Source: Streptomyces sp. CG1 (GTDB taxonomy: Bacteria > Actinomycetota > Actinomycetes > Streptomycetales > Streptomycetaceae). From it: 64,000 nucleotides of DNA. The stretch spans positions 10,409,501 through 10,473,500 of the forward strand of contig NZ_CP163518.1 of assembly GCF_041080625.1 (NCBI RefSeq), in the 5' to 3' direction. The stretch's first letter is position 1. Every line of letters begins with the position of its first letter. Positions 49,421 through 58,457 of the stretch are shown one piece after another. The translations under genes and the position numbers were made by a program. A model generated the notes under the pieces. The model was not told where the DNA came from and ran no database searches. It saw only the letters and a list, made by a program, of their open reading frames with translations.

Positions 49421-49649
49421 CGGAGTGCTGTGCTCGGGTATGTGTCGCGCCTTTCGCCAAAGCGCCGGGGGAGCGGGCGCGAGGTGGCCGCCGGTGGCTC
49501 ACCGTACCGATCACCCGCTCTGCGGCGGTGCGCGGTCCCCAGCGCTGTGCCGCCGCTACAGGTGCCGTCGGCCACTGGTCAAGACTCCGCCAAGAACTTG
49601 CGTTCATGCGCAAGTATGTGGATACACTCTTCGAGGTTTGAAGGGGCAC

Positions 49650-49806
49650 CTCGTTCGGTGAGGCGTCTTCACGGACACAGGCCACTGACCCCACGACGTC
49701 GAGAGACGCCCAGGGTCAGGACAGGTCTCCCCGACCTAAGGGGTGACCCCAAGTGGCTTCCCCCGCAAGGGGATTACGCCGTGGAGTGCCAAAGCTCTGA
49801 CGAGTT
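49650..49806 (+). promoter_or_regulatory. M-box (ykoK) Mg2+ riboswitch 1
   Basis: The sequence has the order and core motifs of the M-box aptamer: TTCGGTGAGGCG at the 5' side, GGACACAGGCCACTGACC, GACGCC followed by GGGTCAGGACAGG, CCTAAGGGGTGACC, and at the 3' side AGTGCCAAAGCTCTGACGAG. The TCGT and ACGA ends can pair to close the aptamer. M-box RNAs bind Mg2+ and shut off Mg2+-uptake genes when Mg2+ is high. Downstream lie a leader ORF (49899) and an Nramp-like transporter (50123). A copy with similar sequence is at 54211. TTGCGT and TACACT at 49602-49633 may be its promoter. Confidence 0.88.
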
Positions 49807-49898
49807 GGGGTGAGCCGGTCGCGCTGACCGGGTTGCTCCTTGCCGAGTCGTTGCTGACGCGCACAGGTCGCGTCCCCGGCCGGAAGGAGGCGAGAGAC

Positions 49899-49976
49899 AT
49901 GGACTGCAGAAGCAGTAGTCCGGGCCATAGTCGGCCCCTGATCCGCTTGTCCTCGCATTCTTCCGGCACGCGGTAG
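49899..49976 (+). CDS. Leader peptide 1 downstream of M-box (25 residues)
   Basis: A short gene encodes MDCRSSSPGHSRPLIRLSSH and five more residues, SSGTR. AAGGAGGCGAGAGAC lies before the ATG, a very strong ribosome site. A peptide with the same SSPGHSRP core and the same distance class lies after M-box 2, and 25 bases are identical between the two. Inside is a small hairpin GGGCC-ATAGTC-GGCCC (49922-49937). The pattern matches leader genes whose translation controls a downstream Mg2+ gene, as with mgtL in enterobacteria, but I know of no description of this one. Confidence 0.72.
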   Translation: MDCRSSSPGHSRPLIRLSSHSSGTR

Positions 49977-50046
49977 CCACTTCCCCTGCGCGGATTCACT
50001 CCGCGTCCCGAGCCCCGTACGGCCTCGAGCCGTGACGGGCCGCCGT

Positions 50047-50117
50047 CCTGCGCGCTCGCGCAGGGGGATGGCTTTCGCGCGCCTTTCTACCTCCCCCTTT
50101 GGGGGGATTCGGGAGGT
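50047..50117 (+). promoter_or_regulatory. RNA hairpins that could mask the NRMT ribosome site
   Basis: CCTGCGCG-CT-CGCGCAGG (50047-50064) forms a strong stem. Further down, ACCTCCC (50089-50095) can pair with the ribosome site GGGAGGT (50111-50117), or CCCCC (50093-50097) can pair with GGGGG (50101-50105). The alternatives exclude one another, so the site could be opened or hidden according to folding or ribosome position on the leader gene. Confidence 0.5.
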
Positions 50118-50122
50118 ATGTC

Positions 50123-51769
50123 ATGACCATCGTGACTGAGACGACCGAGGCGACCGGGACCCCGCGCACCGCCGTCCTCGACGACGCCCACGTGGGCGAC
50201 ATCCGCGGTGCCCTCGGCACCATCAAGCTCGACGACACCGCACCCCGCACCGGCCTGTCCGCCAAGCTCAAGACGCTCCTCGCCATAGTCGGGCCCGGCC
50301 TGATCGTGATGGTGGGCGACAACGACGCAGGAGCCTTCGCCACCTACGGCCAGGCCGGCCAGAACTACGGCACCCATCTGCTGTGGACCCTGCTCCTGCT
50401 GGTTCCGGTGCTGTACGTGAACCAGGAGATGGTGCTGCGCCTCGGTGCCGTCACCGGCGTGGGCCACGCCCGTCTGATCCTGGAGCGGTTCGGGAAGTTC
50501 TGGGGCGCGTTCAGCGTGATCGACCTGTTCCTGCTCAACGCCCTGACCCTGGTGACGGAGTTCATCGGCATCACCCTGGCCGCCGGATACCTGGGCCTGC
50601 CGAAGGTGGCGTCCGTGGTGCTCGCTGCGGCGATCATCATCGCGTCGGCGTTCACGGGATCGTTCCAGCGGTTCGAGCGGGTGGCGATGACGCTGTGCGC
50701 GGCGTCGCTGCTGCTGGTGCCGATCTACTTCATGGTCCACCCGCACGCCTCGCAGATGGCACGCGACTTCGTCGTCCCGAACATGCCCGGCGGTACTGGC
50801 CAGTTGTCCACGGTGATGCTGTTGATCATCGGCATTGTCGGCACCACGGTCGCCCCCTGGCAGCTGTTCTTCCAGCAGTCGTACGTCATCGACAAGCGGA
50901 TCACCCCTCGCTTCATGAAGTACGAGAAGGCCGACCTCTGGATCGGCATCGTCGTGGTCGTCATCGGTGCCGCCGCCATGATGGGCTTCACCACCGCGGC
51001 CTTCGCCGGTACGCACGGCTTCGGCCAGTTCACCGACACGGCCGGGGTCGCCCACGGGCTGGAGGCAAAGGCGGGCAAGCTCACGGGCGTGCTGTTCGCC
51101 ATCGCGTTGCTGGACGCCTCGATCATCGGCGCCTTCGCAGTGTCCCTGTCCACCGCCTACGCCATCGGTGACGTGCTGGGCATGAAGCACTCTCTGCACC
51201 GTGGGGTCGGCGGCGCGAAGGGCTTCTACGCCGTCTACGCCGGTCTGGTCGCGGCGGCTGCCGCCATCGTGCTGATCCCGGGCTCGCCGCTCGGCCTGCT
51301 GACCGAGGGCGTCCAGACGCTGGCCGGGGTGCTGCTGCCGTCCGCGTCGGTGTTCCTGCTGCTGCTGTGCAACGACAAGGCCGTGCTCGGCCCGTGGGTG
51401 AACGGCCCGAAGACCAACGCGTTCACCTCGGTCGTGGTCGGAGTGCTGGTCACGCTGTCGATCATCCTGACCGCCTCGGTCCTGTTTCCGGATATCTCCG
51501 CGGGCGCGATCCTGGACGTCATGGCCGCCTGCGGCATCGTCGGAGTGCTGGCCGCCGGCTACTCCTTCACCCGGCGCCGCACGGGCACCAAGGAGGACCC
51601 GATCGACCGGACCGGCAAGGACGAGTGGCGGATGCCGCCGCTGCAGACCCTGACCAGGCCCACCATGTCCACCGCCCGCAAGATCGGCATGGGCGCCCTG
51701 CGCACCTACCTGCTCATCGCGATGATCCTGGTCGTCATCAAGATCGTCCAGATCGCTCTCGCCAACTGA
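50123..51769 (+). CDS. Nramp-related transporter, probable Mg2+ importer (1)
   Basis: A 548-residue membrane protein with about 11 helices and a 60-residue cytosolic start. The fold is Nramp (GPGLIVMVGDNDAGAFATYG for helix 1, GTTVAPWQLFFQQSYVIDKR for helix 6). Nramp metal transporters use DPGN in helix 1 and MPH in helix 6; here the corresponding residues read DAGA and APW, so the Asn and the Met ligand for transition metals are both lost. Loss of the Met is a feature of Nramp-related magnesium transporters (NRMT). An M-box upstream supports Mg2+ uptake. GGGAGGT precedes the ATG. Long divergent loops and a C-terminal helix make it larger than typical Nramp (about 430). Confidence 0.88.
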   Translation: MTIVTETTEATGTPRTAVLDDAHVGDIRGALGTIKLDDTAPRTGLSAKLKTLLAIVGPGLIVMVGDNDAGAFATYGQAGQNYGTHLLWTLLLLVPVLYVNQEMVLRLGAVTGVGHARLILERFGKFWGAFSVIDLFLLNALTLVTEFIGITLAAGYLGLPKVASVVLAAAIIIASAFTGSFQRFERVAMTLCAASLLLVPIYFMVHPHASQMARDFVVPNMPGGTGQLSTVMLLIIGIVGTTVAPWQLFFQQSYVIDKRITPRFMKYEKADLWIGIVVVVIGAAAMMGFTTAAFAGTHGFGQFTDTAGVAHGLEAKAGKLTGVLFAIALLDASIIGAFAVSLSTAYAIGDVLGMKHSLHRGVGGAKGFYAVYAGLVAAAAAIVLIPGSPLGLLTEGVQTLAGVLLPSASVFLLLLCNDKAVLGPWVNGPKTNAFTSVVVGVLVTLSIILTASVLFPDISAGAILDVMAACGIVGVLAAGYSFTRRRTGTKEDPIDRTGKDEWRMPPLQTLTRPTMSTARKIGMGALRTYLLIAMILVVIKIVQIALAN

Positions 51770-51799
51770 CCACCGCCGGCTCTCTCACCGAAAGGCCTG

Positions 51800-52079
51800 C
51801 GGTGCCGGCTGCCCGGGGCGGCGCGTGGTTCGCGACCGCAGACGGAACCGTCCAGCTCCATCCGGGCATCGAGCAGCCGATCCGGAGCGCGACGAAAGCC
51901 CCCGGGACCGCGGGTGCGGGGCATCGACGCCTTCGCCGACCGGCTCGCGGCTTACGGTGCCCTGTTGACCTGGGACGTCAACCTGCCCGGCCAGCGGCGC
52001 TTCTACAGCACCGCCCCGGTCGGCAACCGCCTGAAATTCCTCGAACCGCTCGCCCGACCCGGGCGCCGGACGCCGTAAG
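51800..52079 (+). pseudogene. VOC-superfamily (bleomycin-resistance-like) fragment
   Basis: In one frame ARGGAWFATADGTVQLHPGI appears. After a shift near 51905 it continues as RGIDAFADRLAAYGALLTWD and VNLPGQRRFYSTAPVGNRLK then FLEPLARPG. This is the second half of a VOC protein, with its conserved FYSTxPxGNRLEFLE end. The first half is missing. It lies between the two Mg2+ genes and is unrelated to them. Confidence 0.6.
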
Positions 52080-52103
52080 GCCCGTTTCTGAAGGAGGTGC
52101 CTC

Positions 52104-52835
52104 ATGCAGGCCCTGACCACCGTCGACTTCGTGACCCGGCTCGGCACGGGGGTGGCATGCGGGGCGCTGATCGGTGTCGAGCGGCAGTGGCGCGCCCGGA
52201 TGGCGGGCCTGCGTACCAACGCCCTGGTGGCCGTCGGCGCCACCTTGTTCGTGCTGTACAGCGAGGCCGTCGGTGACCCGGGCAGCCCGACCAGGGTGGC
52301 GTCCTACGTGGTGTCCGGGATCGGCTTCCTGGGCGGTGGTGTGATCCTGCGGGACGGGGCCGGGGTGCGGGGACTGAACACCGCTGCCACCTTGTGGTGC
52401 TCGGCCGCCGTCGGGGTGCTGGCCGCCTCCGGCCGGCTGGGCCTGGCCATGCTCGGCACCGTGGTGGTGCTGGCCGTTCATGTGGTGCTACGGCCCGCCG
52501 GGCGGCTGCTGGACCGGGCTCCGGCCGCCGGCACCGACCCCGACGCGGCCGTCCGCGCCACCGTGCACCTGGTGTGTGAGCGCGAGGCCGAGACCCACCT
52601 GCGTGCCCTGCTGCTGCAGACCTTGGCCGCCTCCGGGCTCGCCCCCACCGGGCTGCGCGCCCGCCGCGAGGGGGAGTCCGCCAGCCTGCGCGCCACCGTC
52701 ACGATCAACGGCGATGTCGCCGCCGCGCTGGAGCAGGTGATCTCCCGGTTGTCACTGGAGCCGGGTGTGAGCGACCTGCACTGGCACATGGACGACGAGG
52801 AGTCCGAGCGGGAACGGCCCCGGGCGCTGGCCTGA
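52104..52835 (+). CDS. MgtC/SapB-family membrane protein
   Basis: A 243-residue protein with the MgtC signatures: LIGVERQWRARMAGLRTNAL, SGIGFLGGGVILRDGAGVRG and LNTAATLWCSAAVGVLAASG. Five helices are followed by a cytosolic C-terminal domain of about 85 residues with an ACT-like fold (AVRATVHLVCEREAETHLRA). MgtC proteins are induced at low Mg2+ and in pathogens control the F-ATPase and survival; they are not transporters. AAGGAGGTGCC precedes the ATG. Position 335 bases after the first Nramp-like gene, and before the second M-box, makes it part of the Mg2+ island. Confidence 0.93.
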   Translation: MQALTTVDFVTRLGTGVACGALIGVERQWRARMAGLRTNALVAVGATLFVLYSEAVGDPGSPTRVASYVVSGIGFLGGGVILRDGAGVRGLNTAATLWCSAAVGVLAASGRLGLAMLGTVVVLAVHVVLRPAGRLLDRAPAAGTDPDAAVRATVHLVCEREAETHLRALLLQTLAASGLAPTGLRARREGESASLRATVTINGDVAAALEQVISRLSLEPGVSDLHWHMDDEESERERPRALA

Positions 52836-52941
52836 CCCACAGGGCAGCGCCCTCCCGCCGCCCGGCCAGGACCAGGGGTCTACGGCCCCCGGACAGCGGT
52901 CCGGTGACCGGCCAGGATGGAAATCGAAGGGAGAGCGTGTC

Positions 52942-53388
52942 ATGAGGACCCTGCCTCATTCGCACACCGGCGAGATCGCCGCTCTGCTGGGGGTGCTTGT
53001 ACTGACCGTGCTGGAGATCACCGCGCTGGCCACCGCGCCGGCCCGAGACCGGCCACTCGTCAGCGGGGCCCTCGTCGGCGCGGGCACCGCCGCGTTCGTC
53101 ATGGTGGCGGCCGTGTGGCACAGCCACCGCGACGTCGCCCGCCAGGGCCGCTGGAGTCTGTCGCAGACGGTCGACGAGTCGTGGTTCACCGCCCACACAC
53201 TGGACGGCTTTCCCATGGAGGCCGTGCGCCCGTACCTGCTCGGCAAGAACGCGCCCAGTCTCAACAGCCTGTACACGGCCTGGGTCTTCACCACGCACGG
53301 CCGGGACGCCCAGTGGATCGAGCGCCACCTGAACCTCCCCGCCGACATCACCTGTCTCCTGCTCGAGGCTTCCCGGCAGCGCCACTGA
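52942..53388 (+). CDS. Small two-helix membrane protein, duplicated downstream
   Basis: A 148-residue protein begins MRTLPHSHTGEIAALLGVLV and has two membrane helices (VLVLTVLEITALATA and VGAGTAAFVMVAAVW). The soluble C-terminal part holds WFTAHTLDGFPMEAVRPYLL, SLYTAWVFTTHGRDAQWIER and HLNLPADITCLLLEAS. AAGGGAGAG precedes the ATG. A shortened copy lies at 53826. It follows mgtC closely (106 bases) and may be part of the same transcript. No family is recognised; I would call it a candidate Mg2+-stress protein. Confidence 0.75.
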   Translation: MRTLPHSHTGEIAALLGVLVLTVLEITALATAPARDRPLVSGALVGAGTAAFVMVAAVWHSHRDVARQGRWSLSQTVDESWFTAHTLDGFPMEAVRPYLLGKNAPSLNSLYTAWVFTTHGRDAQWIERHLNLPADITCLLLEASRQRH

Positions 53389-53399
53389 CCGCCCGGCAC

Positions 53400-53780
53400 T
53401 TCGGGGCCTTGGCTCTGTTCACCAGCTGCGGTTCTCGTGGACGGAGCCAATCACCAAGATCCGCTTGTCCGCGCTTCGAGCGATACGACTCGACGTCCGC
53501 ATCCGTCCCGCCTTGGGCGGTGAAAGACCCAAGGGGAGCAGCTCTCCGGCCGACCGCGCCGACCAGGACGGGGGCGCCGTCCGGGCCAGGGCGGGTGTAG
53601 CCGGTGACGATGCGGCGCTTGGCGGGGTCGCCGCCGAGGACGGTCATGTCGGTGCCCAGGCCCGGCATGCCGACCGACCGGATGCGTGCGCCGTGCCGGT
53701 GGGACCAGAAGCGGGGGACCTGCATGAACGGGGCGGCGTCCTAGGGGCCTTGGAGGAGGGCTACGGCGGCCGAGGGCGGA
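53400..53780. other. Stretch between the duplicated membrane protein genes
   Basis: A minus-strand frame contains MQVPRFWSHRHGARIRS near 53725 and KRRIVTGYTRPGPDGAPVLV near 53600, which seem protein-like but do not join into one gene. It may hold decayed sequence. Confidence 0.3.
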
Positions 53781-53825
53781 AGCGGTCGTGCTCGCCGTGG
53801 CGATCACCTGTGGATCGGGATCGTC

Positions 53826-54062
53826 GTGGTGGCCGCCGTGTGGCACAGCCACTGGACCGCTGCCCGACAGGCCCGGCAGCGCTTGGCCATGGAAGCCGTA
53901 CGCCCCAGCTGCTGGGACCCCGACGCGCCCGATCTCAACCTCCCGTACACAGCTTGGGTCTTCGCCACCCACGGCCACGACGGCACCTGGATCGCTCACC
54001 ATCTGAACCTGCCGGAAGACACCAGCCGTCTCCGGGTCGACGCCGTCCGGCAGTGCCCCTGA
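53826..54062 (+). pseudogene. Degenerate copy of the 52942 membrane protein
   Basis: The translation VAAVWHSHWTAARQARQRLA, MEAVRPSCWDPDAPDLNLPY, TAWVFATHGHDGTWIAHHLN and LPEDTSRL matches the last two-thirds of the gene at 52942, with a gap of about 20 residues after the second helix. The first membrane helix is gone or out of frame (GIVVVAAVW precedes). This is a tandem duplication in decay. Confidence 0.72.
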
Positions 54063-54210
54063 CCGTGGGGATGCCACTGTGTGTGGGATCGGATCCCCGT
54101 TGATGTCCCGACAGAGGGCCGGTGTAGACCATGCCCTGGTCAAGGGCCGGTCATGGATGAGGAGGCTGGGTCGGGAGGGGCGTAGTCTTGGTGCGGATAT
54201 ACGACAGATA

Positions 54211-54366
54211 CCTCGTTCGGTGAGGCGTCTTCACGGACACAGGCCACTGATCCCAATCGTCGAGAGACGCTCCGGATCAGGACAGGTCTCCCCGGCCCAA
54301 GGGGTGACCCCAAGTGGCTTCCCTGCGGGGTTCGCGTCGTGGAGTGCCGAAGCTCTGACGAGTTGG
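54211..54366 (+). promoter_or_regulatory. M-box (ykoK) Mg2+ riboswitch 2
   Basis: Near-copy of riboswitch 1: TTCGGTGAGGCGTCTTCACG is identical in both, as are CAGGACAGGTCTCCCCG, AAGGGGTGACCCCAAGTGGC and AGCTCTGACGAGTTGGGG. Differences lie in loops and in paired bases that mostly covary. It leads to a second leader peptide gene and the MgtE-like/Nramp-like operon. Confidence 0.87.
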
Positions 54367-54451
54367 GGTGTGCCGGGACTGAGTTGCCCGGCTGCCCCTG
54401 GCCGCAGGACCGTGACACCCTCGTGCACGGCCGTGACCGGGAGGAGGCGAC

Positions 54452-54538
54452 ATGGACAGTAGTCCGGGCCATAGTCGGCCCTACCTCGTGTCGTCCTCGC
54501 CGCCCTTCCGCGTCCTGGGGCAGCCCGTTCTTCCTTGA
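54452..54538 (+). CDS. Leader peptide 2 downstream of M-box (28 residues)
   Basis: The peptide reads MDSSPGHSRPYLVSSSPPFR and ends VLGQPVLP. GGGAGGAGGCGAC lies before the ATG. The core SSPGHSRP and hairpin GGGCC-ATAGTC-GGCCC (54466-54481) are identical to leader 1, although the rest differs in sequence and length. The C-terminal half is rich in Ser and Pro codons, which slow ribosomes. Confidence 0.72.
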   Translation: MDSSPGHSRPYLVSSSPPFRVLGQPVLP

Positions 54539-54715
54539 CCAGCCCGGTTTGTGCCGCCGATATCCGCCCACCCGGCGGGCCGGCGGTGCACTGGTGTGCG
54601 TTCGGCATGTGCGCCGCCACCGGGCCGCAGGGGAACACCGCTGCCTCGGGCCGCCCACTCCGCCCCGCCATGCCGGGGCAAGGAGGTGTTCACCCTGGCC
54701 GCCCACACTCTGCTC

Positions 54716-56062
54716 ATGTCCACCTCGGCCCGTCTGCGCGACCGCCGGGTCAATCTGGAGCGCCGCGCCACCGCGTCCAAGACCGTCCGCGCCTCCCTCG
54801 TCTCGCTGGCCGGACTGGTCGGCGGACCGGTCACCAACCAGGCCGGCGAGGAGGTTGGCCGCGTCGTCGACGTCGTCGCCCGGCTGTACGGGCCGGATCC
54901 GTACCCGCCGGTCACCGGGTTGATCCTGCGCATCGGACGGCGGCGTACGTTCCTCGCCTCGGATGCCGTCGGCAAGGTGCACGCCGGGCATGTGCGGCTG
55001 CGCACCGCCCGGGTGGACCTGCGCGACTTCGTCCGTCGCCCCGGCGAGGTCCTGCTGGCCAAGGACGTACTCGACCACCAACTGGTCGACGTCGACGGCG
55101 TCCAGGTCACCCGGGCCGCCGATCTCTACTTGGCGCCGTTGGTGGACCGGGTGGTGCTGGTCGGCGTGGATGTATCGATGCCCACCCTGCTGCGGCGGCT
55201 CGGCCCCCGCCGGTGGCAGGCCCGGCCGACCCCGGAGCGCGTGCTGGACTGGCAGTCGATCGCCCCGTTCGCCGAGCAGGCCACAGACGGACCGCCCGAG
55301 GTACGCCTGCGCGCCTCCCGCACCGTGCTGCACAGACTGCGTCCCGCCGACCTCGCCGACATCCTCGAGGACCTCGGCCGCAGCGAGCGCCAGCAGCTGC
55401 TGGGCTGGCTGGAGCCGGAGCAGGCCGCCGACGCCCTGGAGGAGATGGAACCGGCCGAGCTGGAGAACCTGCTGCGTGAGGCGGCTCCCGACCACGCCGC
55501 CCGGCTGGTCGACGAGATGGAACCGGACGAGGCCACCGACGCCCTGCGCGACCTCACCCCCGAGGAGCGGGAGAACCTGCTGCGCCGTATGCCGAAGGGC
55601 GAGGCGGCGGAGCTGCGCCGGCTGCTGGCCCACAGGGAGGGCACCGCGGGCGGCGCCATGACCACCCTGCTGGTCACCGCCCACCGGGACGAGACCGTCG
55701 CCGACGTGCGGGCCCGACTGGCCGAACACGCGGAGCACCGCACGGAGATCGACGCCGTCGCCGTCGTGGACGGCGAGGACCGGCTCCTGTGCGACATCTC
55801 ACTGTTCGACCTGGCGGTGGCCGAGGACACGTCGCTCGTAGCTGACCTGGTCGCATGGCTGGCCCAGTTCGGCCCGCCCGTCACCGTCCACGTCGATACG
55901 TCGCTGGCAGACGCCGCGGACCAGCTGGTCGCGGCTCGCGCCTCTTCCCTGCTGGTGGTCGACGACGTAGACCGCCCGATCGGCCGGATCCTGGCCGACG
56001 ACCTGCTCGACGCGATGCTGCCCGAACGCGGGCGTCTGCACTTCCGGAGGTTCCTGCAGTGA
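54716..56062 (+). CDS. MgtE-type sensor protein: PRC-barrel, MgtE N-domain and CBS pair, no channel
   Basis: A 448-residue soluble protein. Residues 25-170 form a PRC-barrel-like pair (LVGGPVTNQAGEEVGRVVDV and LAKDVLDHQLVDVDGVQVTR). Residues 185-320 form an MgtE N-domain with many DALxxLxPxE repeats (EEMEPAELENLLREAAPDHA). Residues 320-445 are a CBS pair (VTAHRDETVADVRARLAEHA and VTVHVDTSLADAADQLVAAR). In MgtE these parts sense cytosolic Mg2+ and gate the channel, but here no membrane domain follows. The gene is coupled to the Nramp-like gene at 56059, so it may be a separate Mg2+-sensing subunit. Start is uncertain; GTG at 54686 is an alternative. Confidence 0.88.
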   Translation: MSTSARLRDRRVNLERRATASKTVRASLVSLAGLVGGPVTNQAGEEVGRVVDVVARLYGPDPYPPVTGLILRIGRRRTFLASDAVGKVHAGHVRLRTARVDLRDFVRRPGEVLLAKDVLDHQLVDVDGVQVTRAADLYLAPLVDRVVLVGVDVSMPTLLRRLGPRRWQARPTPERVLDWQSIAPFAEQATDGPPEVRLRASRTVLHRLRPADLADILEDLGRSERQQLLGWLEPEQAADALEEMEPAELENLLREAAPDHAARLVDEMEPDEATDALRDLTPEERENLLRRMPKGEAAELRRLLAHREGTAGGAMTTLLVTAHRDETVADVRARLAEHAEHRTEIDAVAVVDGEDRLLCDISLFDLAVAEDTSLVADLVAWLAQFGPPVTVHVDTSLADAADQLVAARASSLLVVDDVDRPIGRILADDLLDAMLPERGRLHFRRFLQ

Positions 56063-57351
56063 CCCGCGACCTCGACACCGCCACCGCGGCCCCGCAGGCA
56101 ACCCCACCCGTGCGCCGCACCGGCTGGCGGCGCATCACCATGGTCGCGGCGATCGCCGGCCCCGGCCTGGTCGCCGCGAACGCGGGCAACGACGCCGCCG
56201 GCATCGCCACCTACGCCTCGGCAGGCTCCCAATTCACCTACGGCACCCTGTTCTTCATGGTGCTGGTCACCGCCGCCCTGGTGATGGTGCAGGAGATGGC
56301 CGTCCGCCTCGGTGCCCACACGGGCAAGGGCCTCGGCGCCCTGATCCGCGAGCAGTTCAGCCTCCGCCTGACCGCGTTGGCCGTGTTCTGCCTGCTGCTG
56401 GCCAACACCGGACTGGTCGTCTCGGAATTTGCCGGCATCGGGGCGGCGTTCGAACTCCTCGGCGTGCCCAAGTGGGCGGTCATCCCGCCGGCCGCCGTCC
56501 TGCTCTGGGCACTGGTGCTGTTCGGCTCCTACCACTGGGCCGAGCGCATCTTCCTGATCATGTCGCTGGCGTTCTTCGCGTACCCGATCGCGATGATCCT
56601 CGGCCACCCCGACTGGGGTGCGGTCGGCCACCATCTGATCGTCCCACACGTCGAGGCGAACAAGGACTTCATCCTGCTCGCGGTCGCGTTGATCGGGACG
56701 ACGGTAAGCCCGTACATGCAGTTCTACGCCGCCGCGGGCGTCGTCGACCGCGGTGCCAAGCCCGCCGACTACCCTCTCATCCGCGCCGACGCCGTGCTCG
56801 GTGCCGTCTTCGCCTGCGTCATCAGCCTGACCATCATCATCGCCACGGCGTCCGCCATCGGCGGCACCGGCCCGCTCGACTCCGCCGCCCAGGCCGCGGA
56901 AGCCCTCAAGCCGGTCGCCGGCCAGAACGCCGAACTCCTCTTCGCCGTCGGCCTGATCGGCGCCTCCGCCCTGGCCGGCGCCGTCGTCCCGCTCTCCGCC
57001 AGCTACGCCATAGGGGAGGCCGCCGGCGTGGAACGCTCGGTCTCCCGCAGCTTCCGCGACGCGCCGCTGTTCCTGGGCCTGTTCACCGCACAGATCATCC
57101 TCGGCGCGGCGGTGGCCCTGACCCCGGTCGACGTCATCCAACTGCTGATCGGCACCCAGGTCCTCCAGGGCCTGATCAGCCCCGTCGTCCTCGTCTACCT
57201 CCTGGTCCTGACCAACCGCCGCTCGGTCCTGGGCGAGGCCGTCAACAGCCCGCGCTACCGCGCCGTCGCCACCGTCGTGGTGCTGGGCGTGGCGGCCATG
57301 TCCACGATCCTGCTCGTCCAGACGGTCCTGGGCTGGTTCGGTTTGGGGTAG
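56059..57351 (+). CDS. Nramp-related transporter, probable Mg2+ importer (2)
   Basis: A 430-residue membrane protein with 11 helices. Helix 1 reads AANAGNDAAGIATYASAG and helix 6 reads GTTVSPYMQFYAAAGVVDRG. The DPGN motif is DAAG and the MPH motif is SPY, so the Asn and Met ligands of transition-metal Nramps are absent. It is not a close copy of the first transporter, sharing only the fold. The start GTG lies within the preceding stop (GTGA), so translation is coupled to the MgtE-type sensor; the two proteins probably form one complex. M-box 2 suggests induction at low Mg2+. Confidence 0.9.
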   Translation: MTRDLDTATAAPQATPPVRRTGWRRITMVAAIAGPGLVAANAGNDAAGIATYASAGSQFTYGTLFFMVLVTAALVMVQEMAVRLGAHTGKGLGALIREQFSLRLTALAVFCLLLANTGLVVSEFAGIGAAFELLGVPKWAVIPPAAVLLWALVLFGSYHWAERIFLIMSLAFFAYPIAMILGHPDWGAVGHHLIVPHVEANKDFILLAVALIGTTVSPYMQFYAAAGVVDRGAKPADYPLIRADAVLGAVFACVISLTIIIATASAIGGTGPLDSAAQAAEALKPVAGQNAELLFAVGLIGASALAGAVVPLSASYAIGEAAGVERSVSRSFRDAPLFLGLFTAQIILGAAVALTPVDVIQLLIGTQVLQGLISPVVLVYLLVLTNRRSVLGEAVNSPRYRAVATVVVLGVAAMSTILLVQTVLGWFGLG

Positions 57352-57710: not shown

Positions 57711-58457
57711 ATGGATGAGGTCGAGGTCGTCGTCGCCCATTCCGAGCGCGCGACCCTGCGCGTCGGTGACGTGTTCCTGAAGGTGGACGCCGATCAGGCG
57801 CGTATCGACGTCGAGATCGAGGCGATGGCCTTGGCGCCGGTTCCGACCCCGGAGGTCCTGTGGCGCAAGCCGCCCGTGCTCGCGATCGCCGCGCTCCCGG
57901 GGACGCCGCTCGGCCGCCTCGGCGAAACGTCGACCGCGTCGCCGGCGGCGTGGGCCGCGGCGGGTGCCGCCATCCGGAAGTTGCACGACGCGCCGTTGCC
58001 GTCCTGGCCCGGCCGGGGCGGCCGGGGCCTTGACGAGTTGGCGGCGGATCTCGCCGGCGAGTGCGAGCGGCTCGTGACGAACGGCGTCCTGCCCGCCGAC
58101 CTGGTCACCCGCAACCGCCAGGTCGCCGAGGCCGCGCTCCGGCCGTGGACTCCGGCGTTCACGCACGGCGACCTGCAGATCGCTCACGTGTTCGTCGACG
58201 GTGACGAGATCACGGGCATCATCGACTGGTCCGAGGCGGGCCAAGGTGATGCCTTGTTCGACCTCGCCACCTTGACGCTCGGACACGAGGAGCACCTCAG
58301 CGACGTCGTCGCAGGCTATGGCACCGACGTCGACCTCGACGTGATCCGCGCCTGGTGGTCATTGCGAAGCCTGCTGGCGGTTCGCTGGCTGATCGAGCAC
58401 GGCTTCGACCCGTCCGCGCCAGGCTGTGAGGTCGACGTGCTGAGATCCAGGCTGTGA
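57711..58457 (+). CDS. Aminoglycoside-phosphotransferase-family kinase
   Basis: A 248-residue protein with a protein-kinase-like fold. The catalytic loop is FTHGDLQIAHVFVD, with Asp as base (the usual Asn of HGDxxxxN is His here), and the metal motif GIIDWSEAGQGDALFDLATL follows. The N-lobe has VGDVFLKVDAD with the likely ATP-binding Lys. Such enzymes phosphorylate aminoglycosides or cell metabolites; no substrate can be assigned. The family member length (about 250) is normal. The gene is monocistronic. Confidence 0.9.
   Translation: MDEVEVVVAHSERATLRVGDVFLKVDADQARIDVEIEAMALAPVPTPEVLWRKPPVLAIAALPGTPLGRLGETSTASPAAWAAAGAAIRKLHDAPLPSWPGRGGRGLDELAADLAGECERLVTNGVLPADLVTRNRQVAEAALRPWTPAFTHGDLQIAHVFVDGDEITGIIDWSEAGQGDALFDLATLTLGHEEHLSDVVAGYGTDVDLDVIRAWWSLRSLLAVRWLIEHGFDPSAPGCEVDVLRSRL

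Follow-up and report, generated by a model that had tools for sequence, protein, structure and literature searches.

The stretch of DNA analysed here, referred to as the window, comprises 64,000 nucleotides of the Streptomyces sp. CG1 genome (contig NZ_CP163518.1, positions 10,409,501 to 10,473,500) and harbors two modules, each of which can be read as an M-box-family RNA followed by a conserved leader open reading frame (ORF; 25 or 28 codons) and a predicted operon for Mg2+ transport. The order in module 1 is M-box, 25-codon leader, Nramp1, VOC/glyoxalase-like remnant, mgtC and a 148-amino acid ORF, while module 2 consists of an M-box, a 28-codon leader, a gene encoding an MgtE_N + CBS protein and Nramp2. 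The leader, its conservation and its possible regulatory role are the subject of this report. The features on which the argument rests are the following, where SD stands for Shine-Dalgarno sequence and ON and OFF for the predicted folds that leave the leader SD open or closed:

49643..49816, + strand: M-box aptamer 1 (RF00380, 135.6 bits, E 2.2e-30, full length)
49807..49839, + strand: predicted ON hairpin of module 1, in which the 3′ strand of aptamer stem P1, GGGGUG(A), pairs with UUGCUCC and the anti-SD is sequestered (predicted folds, swapped-partner control)
49835..49845, + strand: anti-SD GCUCCUUGCC(G), pairing with the leader SD in the predicted OFF fold (predicted folds)
49882..49890, + strand: SD of leader 1, GGAAGGAGG (sequence)
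49899..49976, + strand: leader ORF 1, MDCRSSSPGHSRPLIRLSSHSSGTR, starting MDCRSSSPGHSRP... (such a leader follows 35/37 Streptomyces M-boxes)
50123..51769, + strand: Nramp1, NRMT-like transporter, 548 amino acids (PF01566, E 4.8e-77; best PDB match EleNRMT 7qia, E 1.2e-47)
54205..54374, + strand: M-box aptamer 2 (RF00380, 123.7 bits, E 2.9e-27, full length)
54365..54398, + strand: predicted ON hairpin of module 2, GGGGUGUGCCGGG...CCCGGCUGCCCC (predicted folds)
54439..54449, + strand: SD of leader 2, GGGAGGAGGCG (sequence)
54452..54538, + strand: leader ORF 2, MDSSPGHSRPYLVSSSPPFRVLGQPVLP, starting MDSSPGHSRP... (core kept in 16/16 orthologous loci)
54695..56062, + strand: MgtE_N + CBS protein, MgtE membrane (channel) domain absent (PF03448, E 4.3e-24; PF00571)
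56059..57351, + strand: Nramp2, NRMT-like transporter, 430 amino acids, with a 4-base overlap with the MgtE_N gene (PF01566, E 2.6e-79; best PDB match EleNRMT 7qia, E 9.9e-88)

Both M-box-like aptamers reported in the preliminary description are genuine, matching positions 1-169 of the RF00380 model against a gathering cut-off of 44 bits, and above gathering score these two sites are the sole Rfam matches in the window. The genome (11.1 Mb) contains four M-boxes, and a leader ORF of this kind also follows both of those outside the window. The third lies upstream of a near-copy of module 1 (Nramp1 93% identical), while the fourth stands before what looks like a decayed module, in which the leader, a fragment of the N-terminal part of Nramp, a VOC-like gene and mgtC remain. 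The short ORF noted after each aptamer is also real, and the leader pattern is specific to the four M-box loci, where all five of its matches in the genome fall (two of them overlapping); the reversed pattern, used as a control, gave zero matches in the 11.1 Mb. The earlier description missed the likeness between the two leaders and their membership in a conserved set, which is marked by a fixed rare serine codon and in which the aptamer is often absent. The side-by-side arrangement of both module types is rare: among 40 fetched regions and the window, the tandem occurs in the window and, in another arrangement, at one further locus (L072). Two same-strand M-boxes, with starts ~0.8 and 2.3 kb apart, are found at L119 and L129.

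M-boxes are uncommon in Streptomyces, with 37 detected in 22/392 genomes. A leader with an SD and a start codon follows 35 of these 37, the exact motif SPGH being present in 28 of the leaders. One leader is interrupted by Ns (G608), and those of G639 (middle M-box), G550 (C192) and G702 are divergent. In the genome collection the leader pattern, which fixes part of the core, was found in 82 stretches (80 loci, 81 leaders) belonging to the genera Streptomyces, Kitasatospora, Streptacidiphilus, Streptantibioticus, Planosporangium and Amycolatopsis. Classified by the next recognised gene, these leaders comprise 44 of type 1 (Nramp1), 22 of type 2 (MgtE_N), two preceding mgtC, one preceding a VOC-like gene and 12 unassigned. 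An M-box is lacking for 15 of the 80 assessable leaders, while the locus of the 81st (L112) is cut 113 nucleotides upstream.

A protein search of 384 Streptomyces genomes was chosen to avoid the bias of a leader-based search. Among 16 MgtE_N orthologs (≥84% identity) the leader is present at 16/16 loci and a full M-box at 8/16, while 19 Nramp1 orthologs (≥74% identity) are accompanied by the leader in 18 cases (one interrupted by Ns) and by an M-box in 17. The leader is thus retained at 10/10 of the M-box-less ortholog loci, where M-box status derives from RF00380 scans of more than 40 genomes with strict filters, which may miss weak M-boxes; a direct Rfam rescan of these ten loci gave zero matches. 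At some of them scraps of the aptamer are left, with differing deletion ends. On a tree of 36 MgtE_N orthologs, 16 of which were found via the protein and 20 via the leader pattern, with some species in both sets, M-box presence changes eight times (7-8 across bootstraps), and at least four changes are forced by well-supported branches. The M-box label is clustered in comparison with shuffles (mean 12 changes), related loci sharing the same state, and we read the changes mainly as losses, with gains possible. The leader is independent of the aptamer and does not need the M-box.

The pairing of M-boxes with transporters of this kind has a precedent. NrmT under M-box control was described in 2014 in Clostridium acetobutylicum and others, together with mgtE-nramp operons (PMC4072509), and the present loci share with these the M-box upstream of Nramp-related Mg2+ transporters and the mgtE-nramp gene order. 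The preliminary description knew of no account of the arrangement in the window; the M-box-nramp and mgtE-nramp combinations in it are not new. The published cases, mostly from Clostridia and Deltaproteobacteria, differ in having intrinsic terminators, and the accessible part of that source does not mention a leader (PMC4072509). Reading the window as ordinary M-box and NRMT operons of the 2014 kind, with incidental leaders, would account for this precedent and for the RF00380 and EleNRMT matches, but not for leader retention at all ten aptamer-less ortholog loci, and we regard it as highly improbable. Retention would, however, also be expected of a leader that is only the first cistron of the riboswitch, its translation shielding the transcript from Rho or coupling to the next gene while sensing nothing, since a needed first cistron would persist where the aptamer is missing.

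The leader core is conserved at the level of the peptide. Statistics on the core are drawn from sets found by protein or aptamer searches, with the exception of a Streptacidiphilus pair. Codons 2-10 of 15 protein-found type-2 leaders show 0 nonsynonymous and 88 synonymous pairwise differences, the changes being synonymous third positions (CCG/CCC, CAT/CAC, CGG/CGC), and the sixteenth type-2 leader (L195), which falls outside the SD pattern, has the same core on its printed sequence. Four pairs of loci without an M-box agree in all of the first 30 bases (30/30), although past the leader their sequences diverge by 4 to 21%; in the three of these pairs that were found independently of the leader, the intergenic rate predicts ~8.6 differences, as opposed to the 0 observed (Poisson ~2e-4). 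Furthermore, core serines are encoded by AGT in 45/45 cases in type 2 and in 49/58 in the N-terminal half of type-1 leaders, as compared with 4/629 serines in the downstream genes. The same codon accounts for 51/73 serines in codons 2-9 and for 3/69 later serines of 22 leaders from three other families, found via their M-boxes; four further leaders, which misfit the start pattern, and three leaders of family f19 were left out of this count. By calculation, the leader core is under purifying selection, with a fixed rare AGT serine codon.

This peptide-level selection, and the occurrence of the leader before different transporter families, would also fit a small protein that acts in trans, with the transporter or sensor as possible targets, and the authors of the Mycobacterium tuberculosis study discussed below favour a peptide role for Rv1805A (PMC12810186). 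Constraint on the synonymous AGT codons and the poorly conserved tails favour action in cis, and a trans-acting product appears improbable. AGT is less GC-rich than TCC or TCG, and codons of this kind are favoured near the starts of GC-rich genes. The codon bias and core conservation could stem from a need for little structure in the initiation codons or from an RNA motif bound by a protein, with no ribosomal sensor involved, a reading that would also suit the nearly identical core DNA across type 2. However, the core is itself GC-rich (CCGGGCC...GGCCC), and the type-2 core changes seen are synonymous third positions; we hold this explanation to be quite doubtful.

Between aptamer and leader, two mutually exclusive folds are predicted, in which the anti-SD pairs either with the P1 3′ strand, leaving the leader SD open, or with the leader SD, closing it. 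From 98 extracted platforms, 19 duplicates or M-box-less cases were dropped, and predicted leader-SD accessibility is higher in the ON than in the OFF fold for 77 of the 79 distinct platforms that remain, with a mean difference of 0.217 as opposed to 0.045 when the middle part is shuffled; of the 20 null sets, the highest reached 0.094. For the inner stem, which could be assessed in 77 platforms, there is a predicted energy of -8.55 kcal/mol with its own partner and of -7.03 ± 0.13 kcal/mol with swapped partners, an advantage of ~1.5 kcal/mol that none of 200 partner permutations equalled; both shuffles and permutations ignore relatedness, a point that lessens the weight of these differences. 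Predicted SD accessibility in module 1 is 0.54 in the ON and 0.18 in the OFF fold. The predicted folds support a translational OFF-switch acting on the leader.

The closest known system is the pe20 M-box of M. tuberculosis, for which D'Halluin and colleagues describe a translational platform, an expressed upstream ORF (uORF2, Rv1805A) and Rho termination (PMC12810186). The resemblance extends to the succession of M-box, anti-SD, SD2, short conserved uORF and an operon containing mgtC, as well as to an M-box-independent copy of the uORF in M. tuberculosis, Rv0115A (PMC12810186), and the alternative pairing of the anti-SD that marks the pe20-type translational M-box is found in the predicted folds of the 79 platforms. 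The uORF2 peptide has a proline at position 7 and is called specific for mycobacteria (PMC12810186), while the leaders described here occur in Streptomyces and other families, before several transporter types and often without an aptamer. In the two window leaders proline stands at positions 8 and 5 rather than 7, and kinship with the mycobacterial peptide is a matter of place and motif, the peptides being too short for a homology test. A leader serving purely as first cistron would match both this published model (PMC12810186) and the platform folds, but a mere shield needs neither an invariant peptide core nor fixed AGT codons, and we consider it rather unlikely, though a serious alternative.

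On balance we think it probable that the M-box gates translation of the leader and that the leader itself acts as a second, ribosome-based control in cis which persists without the aptamer. The leader would add its own reading of the state of the cell, as suggested by its presence at aptamer-less loci, the invariance of its peptide core and the rare codons fixed in it. At low Mg2+, the aptamer would open and the P1 3′ strand would pair with the anti-SD, so that the leader is translated and the operon expressed. At high Mg2+, the P1 3′ strand would be held and the anti-SD would close the leader SD, with an early end of transcription being probable, perhaps via Rho as in the mycobacterial case. 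Translation, or abortive translation, of the leader may then decide downstream expression via Rho or RNA structure, and in the working model the leader would respond to Mg2+ as enterobacterial MgtL does. We infer Mg2+ sensing by the CG1 modules from their sequence and predicted structure.

MgtL precedes enterobacterial mgtA, and at low Mg2+ its translation aborts at an acidic-proline motif, hiding a Rho site (PMC11282234). The likeness lies in a short leader with a proline near its N-terminus before a Mg2+ importer, for which ribosome-based sensing of low Mg2+ may be supposed here as well, while the window leaders lack EPDP and are preceded by an M-box (PMC11282234). A literal identity with MgtL was considered for the window leaders and rejected, as the acidic-proline motif is missing; they may resemble MgtL in role and not in membership, in that they would work like it.

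Several results weigh against this two-tier reading. Neither window leader contains an MgtL-type acidic-proline motif, a single Asp2 being present, and the predicted SD change in module 2 is small (0.63 vs 0.49). At the type-1 locus L206 (G654), upstream of Nramp1, the M-box is kept and the anti-SD, SD and leader start are absent, and a Streptomyces M-box in G657 has no such leader; because of these two cases the leader is not always needed. By eye, no leader accompanies an Nramp1-like gene with an M-box at L247, and in other classes many M-boxes are followed by a hairpin resembling a terminator, with no leader of this kind. The leader pattern also gave no match at eleven Nramp paralogs (55-60% identity) or at two MgtE_N paralogs (~53%). 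In 14 type-1 leaders pN/pS is 0.62 (N-terminal half 0.41, C-terminal half 0.88), with 0.85 and 0.90 in the shifted frames, and it is 1.6 in the tails of nine type-2 leaders, and because of the values for the type-1 C-terminal half and the type-2 tail the tails do not appear to be clearly under peptide-level selection. Lastly, a second RNA switch, by which a ribosome halted at the stop codon of the leader would release the Nramp1 SD, was unsupported in 48 modelled loci. The predicted accessibility of this SD over the 48 loci is ~0.15, not below that of shuffles (0.11), and blocking the strand past the leader stop raises it from 0.15 to 0.17, as compared with 0.11 to 0.19 in shuffles.

Leaders in similar positions were also found outside Streptomyces. 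M-boxes occur in 24/345 genomes of a class-level sample, in which 29 of the 42 M-boxes outside the CG1 genome were taken as loci, and in 30/366 genomes of a phylum-level sample, from which 24 loci were read and weak partial matches in G1026 left out. In one leader group of family f4 (MSSSDSPGRYP and similar; MSS[SG].SP), most members share with the mycobacterial peptide the proline at position 7 (PMC12810186), and further downstream of one proline-7 leader lies, by eye, a gene resembling isoleucyl-tRNA synthetase, as described for mycobacteria. Because these two traits fit the mycobacterial description, f4 is probably Mycobacteriaceae. The leader MSPGHSPRLSW (f18) precedes CorA, MSPGRSPLSAT (f17) an MgtE with its channel domain, and the divergent Streptomyces leader MDRDSNGPSHSRT a P-type ATPase, all identified with Pfam. 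Some leaders of other families carry an acidic-x-acidic-proline motif or similar: MESDPGHRC, MESDPGSRC and MDSEPGSMC at three f63 loci before genes Nramp-like by eye, MDDDPRSSKP at one f56 locus, and MTDAEPCHS-like leaders at three f19 loci of the class sample, two of them before genes that appear MgtE-like by eye. The likeness of such short leader peptides across families is suggestive only. At two f54 loci (L257, L260) an M-box precedes an MgtE-like gene (by eye), with a possible CTG-started leader between the two, LDPSPTHPARRRVAVVVP or LDASSRPRTVRRSAVATP; the former resembles MgtL.

A broader proposal is more tentative, and we would put it somewhat below an even chance: that widespread M-box-associated leader peptides of Actinomycetota are ribosome-based Mg2+ sensors which in Streptomyces are coded with rare, nearly invariant AGT serines and have outlived the riboswitch in several lineages, the signal being read twice per transcript or by the leader alone. 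The two-tier reading, for its part, offers a hypothesis, open to test, on what the unexplained uORF next to the M-boxes of mycobacteria does, and the leaders outside mycobacteria speak against such peptides being confined to that group. The leader-only loci and the one aptamer-only locus represent natural experiments that separate riboswitch from leader control. If this reading is right, Mg2+ control of these operons would depend more robustly on a leader peptide than on the riboswitch.

Already known are the M-box, NRMT and the combination of the two, as well as a mycobacterial M-box that acts on translation and is linked to a uORF. No report of the Streptomyces leader was found in the literature searched, most subscription journals lying outside its coverage, and the leader is not among the uORF and riboswitch candidates in the accessible part of PMC11109978. 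New, as far as the literature searched extends, are the occurrence of the leader throughout Streptomyces and in related families, its position ahead of several kinds of transporter gene, the AGT rule, and the finding that the aptamer is repeatedly absent where the leader is kept.

With respect to the encoded proteins, the identification of two Nramp-like transporters, an MgtC and an MgtE-type sensor in module 2 was borne out by the domain matches, both transporters being closest in the PDB to the Mg2+ transporter EleNRMT. Nramp1 and Nramp2 share 33% identity, and alignments to 7qia place DxxA-TxxA and DxxG-TxxS, respectively, at the metal site, as opposed to the DxxG-TxxA/T of NRMT (PMC8806188). 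As in EleNRMT (PMC8806188), the site methionine of Mn/Fe transporters and the 6b histidines are absent from both. From these similarities we infer Mg2+ transport by Nramp1 and Nramp2. A third Nramp paralog, 55-60% identical to Nramp1 and represented by the eleven leader-less copies mentioned above, occurs in the CG1 genome (L065, 388-1974), where its site motif is DxxG-TxxA, and in L066, L228 and others. The MgtE_N + CBS gene may start at GTG 54686 or CTG 54695, its longest ORF beginning at 54551. The proposal that Nramp-like proteins replace the usual importers did not stand, because the genome carries five CorA genes beside its four Nramps; no MgtE channel domain was found in the genome, and the Nramps are at most substitutes for MgtE, whose sensor half adjoins one of them.

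The remaining features of the two modules are as follows:

49598..49613, + strand: TTGC-N8-GCAA inverted repeat in the promoter region of module 1, a possible operator (sequence)
50089..50117, + strand: hairpin around the Nramp1 SD, ACCUCCC...GGGAGGU (sequence)
51811..52078, + strand: frame-broken VOC/glyoxalase-like remnant (matched part 51890-52051; 57% to residues 72-125 of the intact VOC-like protein of L004/L087, with frame changes inside)
52104..52835, + strand: MgtC (PF02308, E 5.3e-36, 124.1 bits, cut-off 31.4; and PF21770)
52942..53388, + strand: 148-amino acid ORF (no Pfam or NCBIfam match)

The TTGC-N8-GCAA repeat is located within 400 nucleotides upstream of 27/44 type-1 leaders (shuffled mean 0.1, maximum 1) and of only 2/22 type-2 leaders. 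It is present for four of the five type-1 leaders flagged as M-box-less, the fifth belonging to the truncated locus L112, and suggests an additional transcription factor at type-1 modules. A hairpin in the leader core (GGGCC...GGCCC) was considered as a further candidate element and set aside, being by eye kept inconsistently in other families, where the variants neither prove nor disprove it.

The main genes stand in the order given in the preliminary description, which did not list the VOC/glyoxalase-like remnant before mgtC or the 148-amino acid ORF and its decayed copy after it. The name VOC/glyoxalase is our own reading, with no Pfam result behind it; the gene between Nramp1 and mgtC is intact in L004/L087 and occurs in several relatives. 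The decayed second copy of the 148-amino acid ORF (53816-54065) lies between mgtC and the second M-box, and relatives of this ORF, full or partial, are found in six other regions, some adjoining mgtC. Just 3′ of module 2, at positions 57711-58457 of the window, is a gene resembling APH-type phosphotransferases (PF01636).

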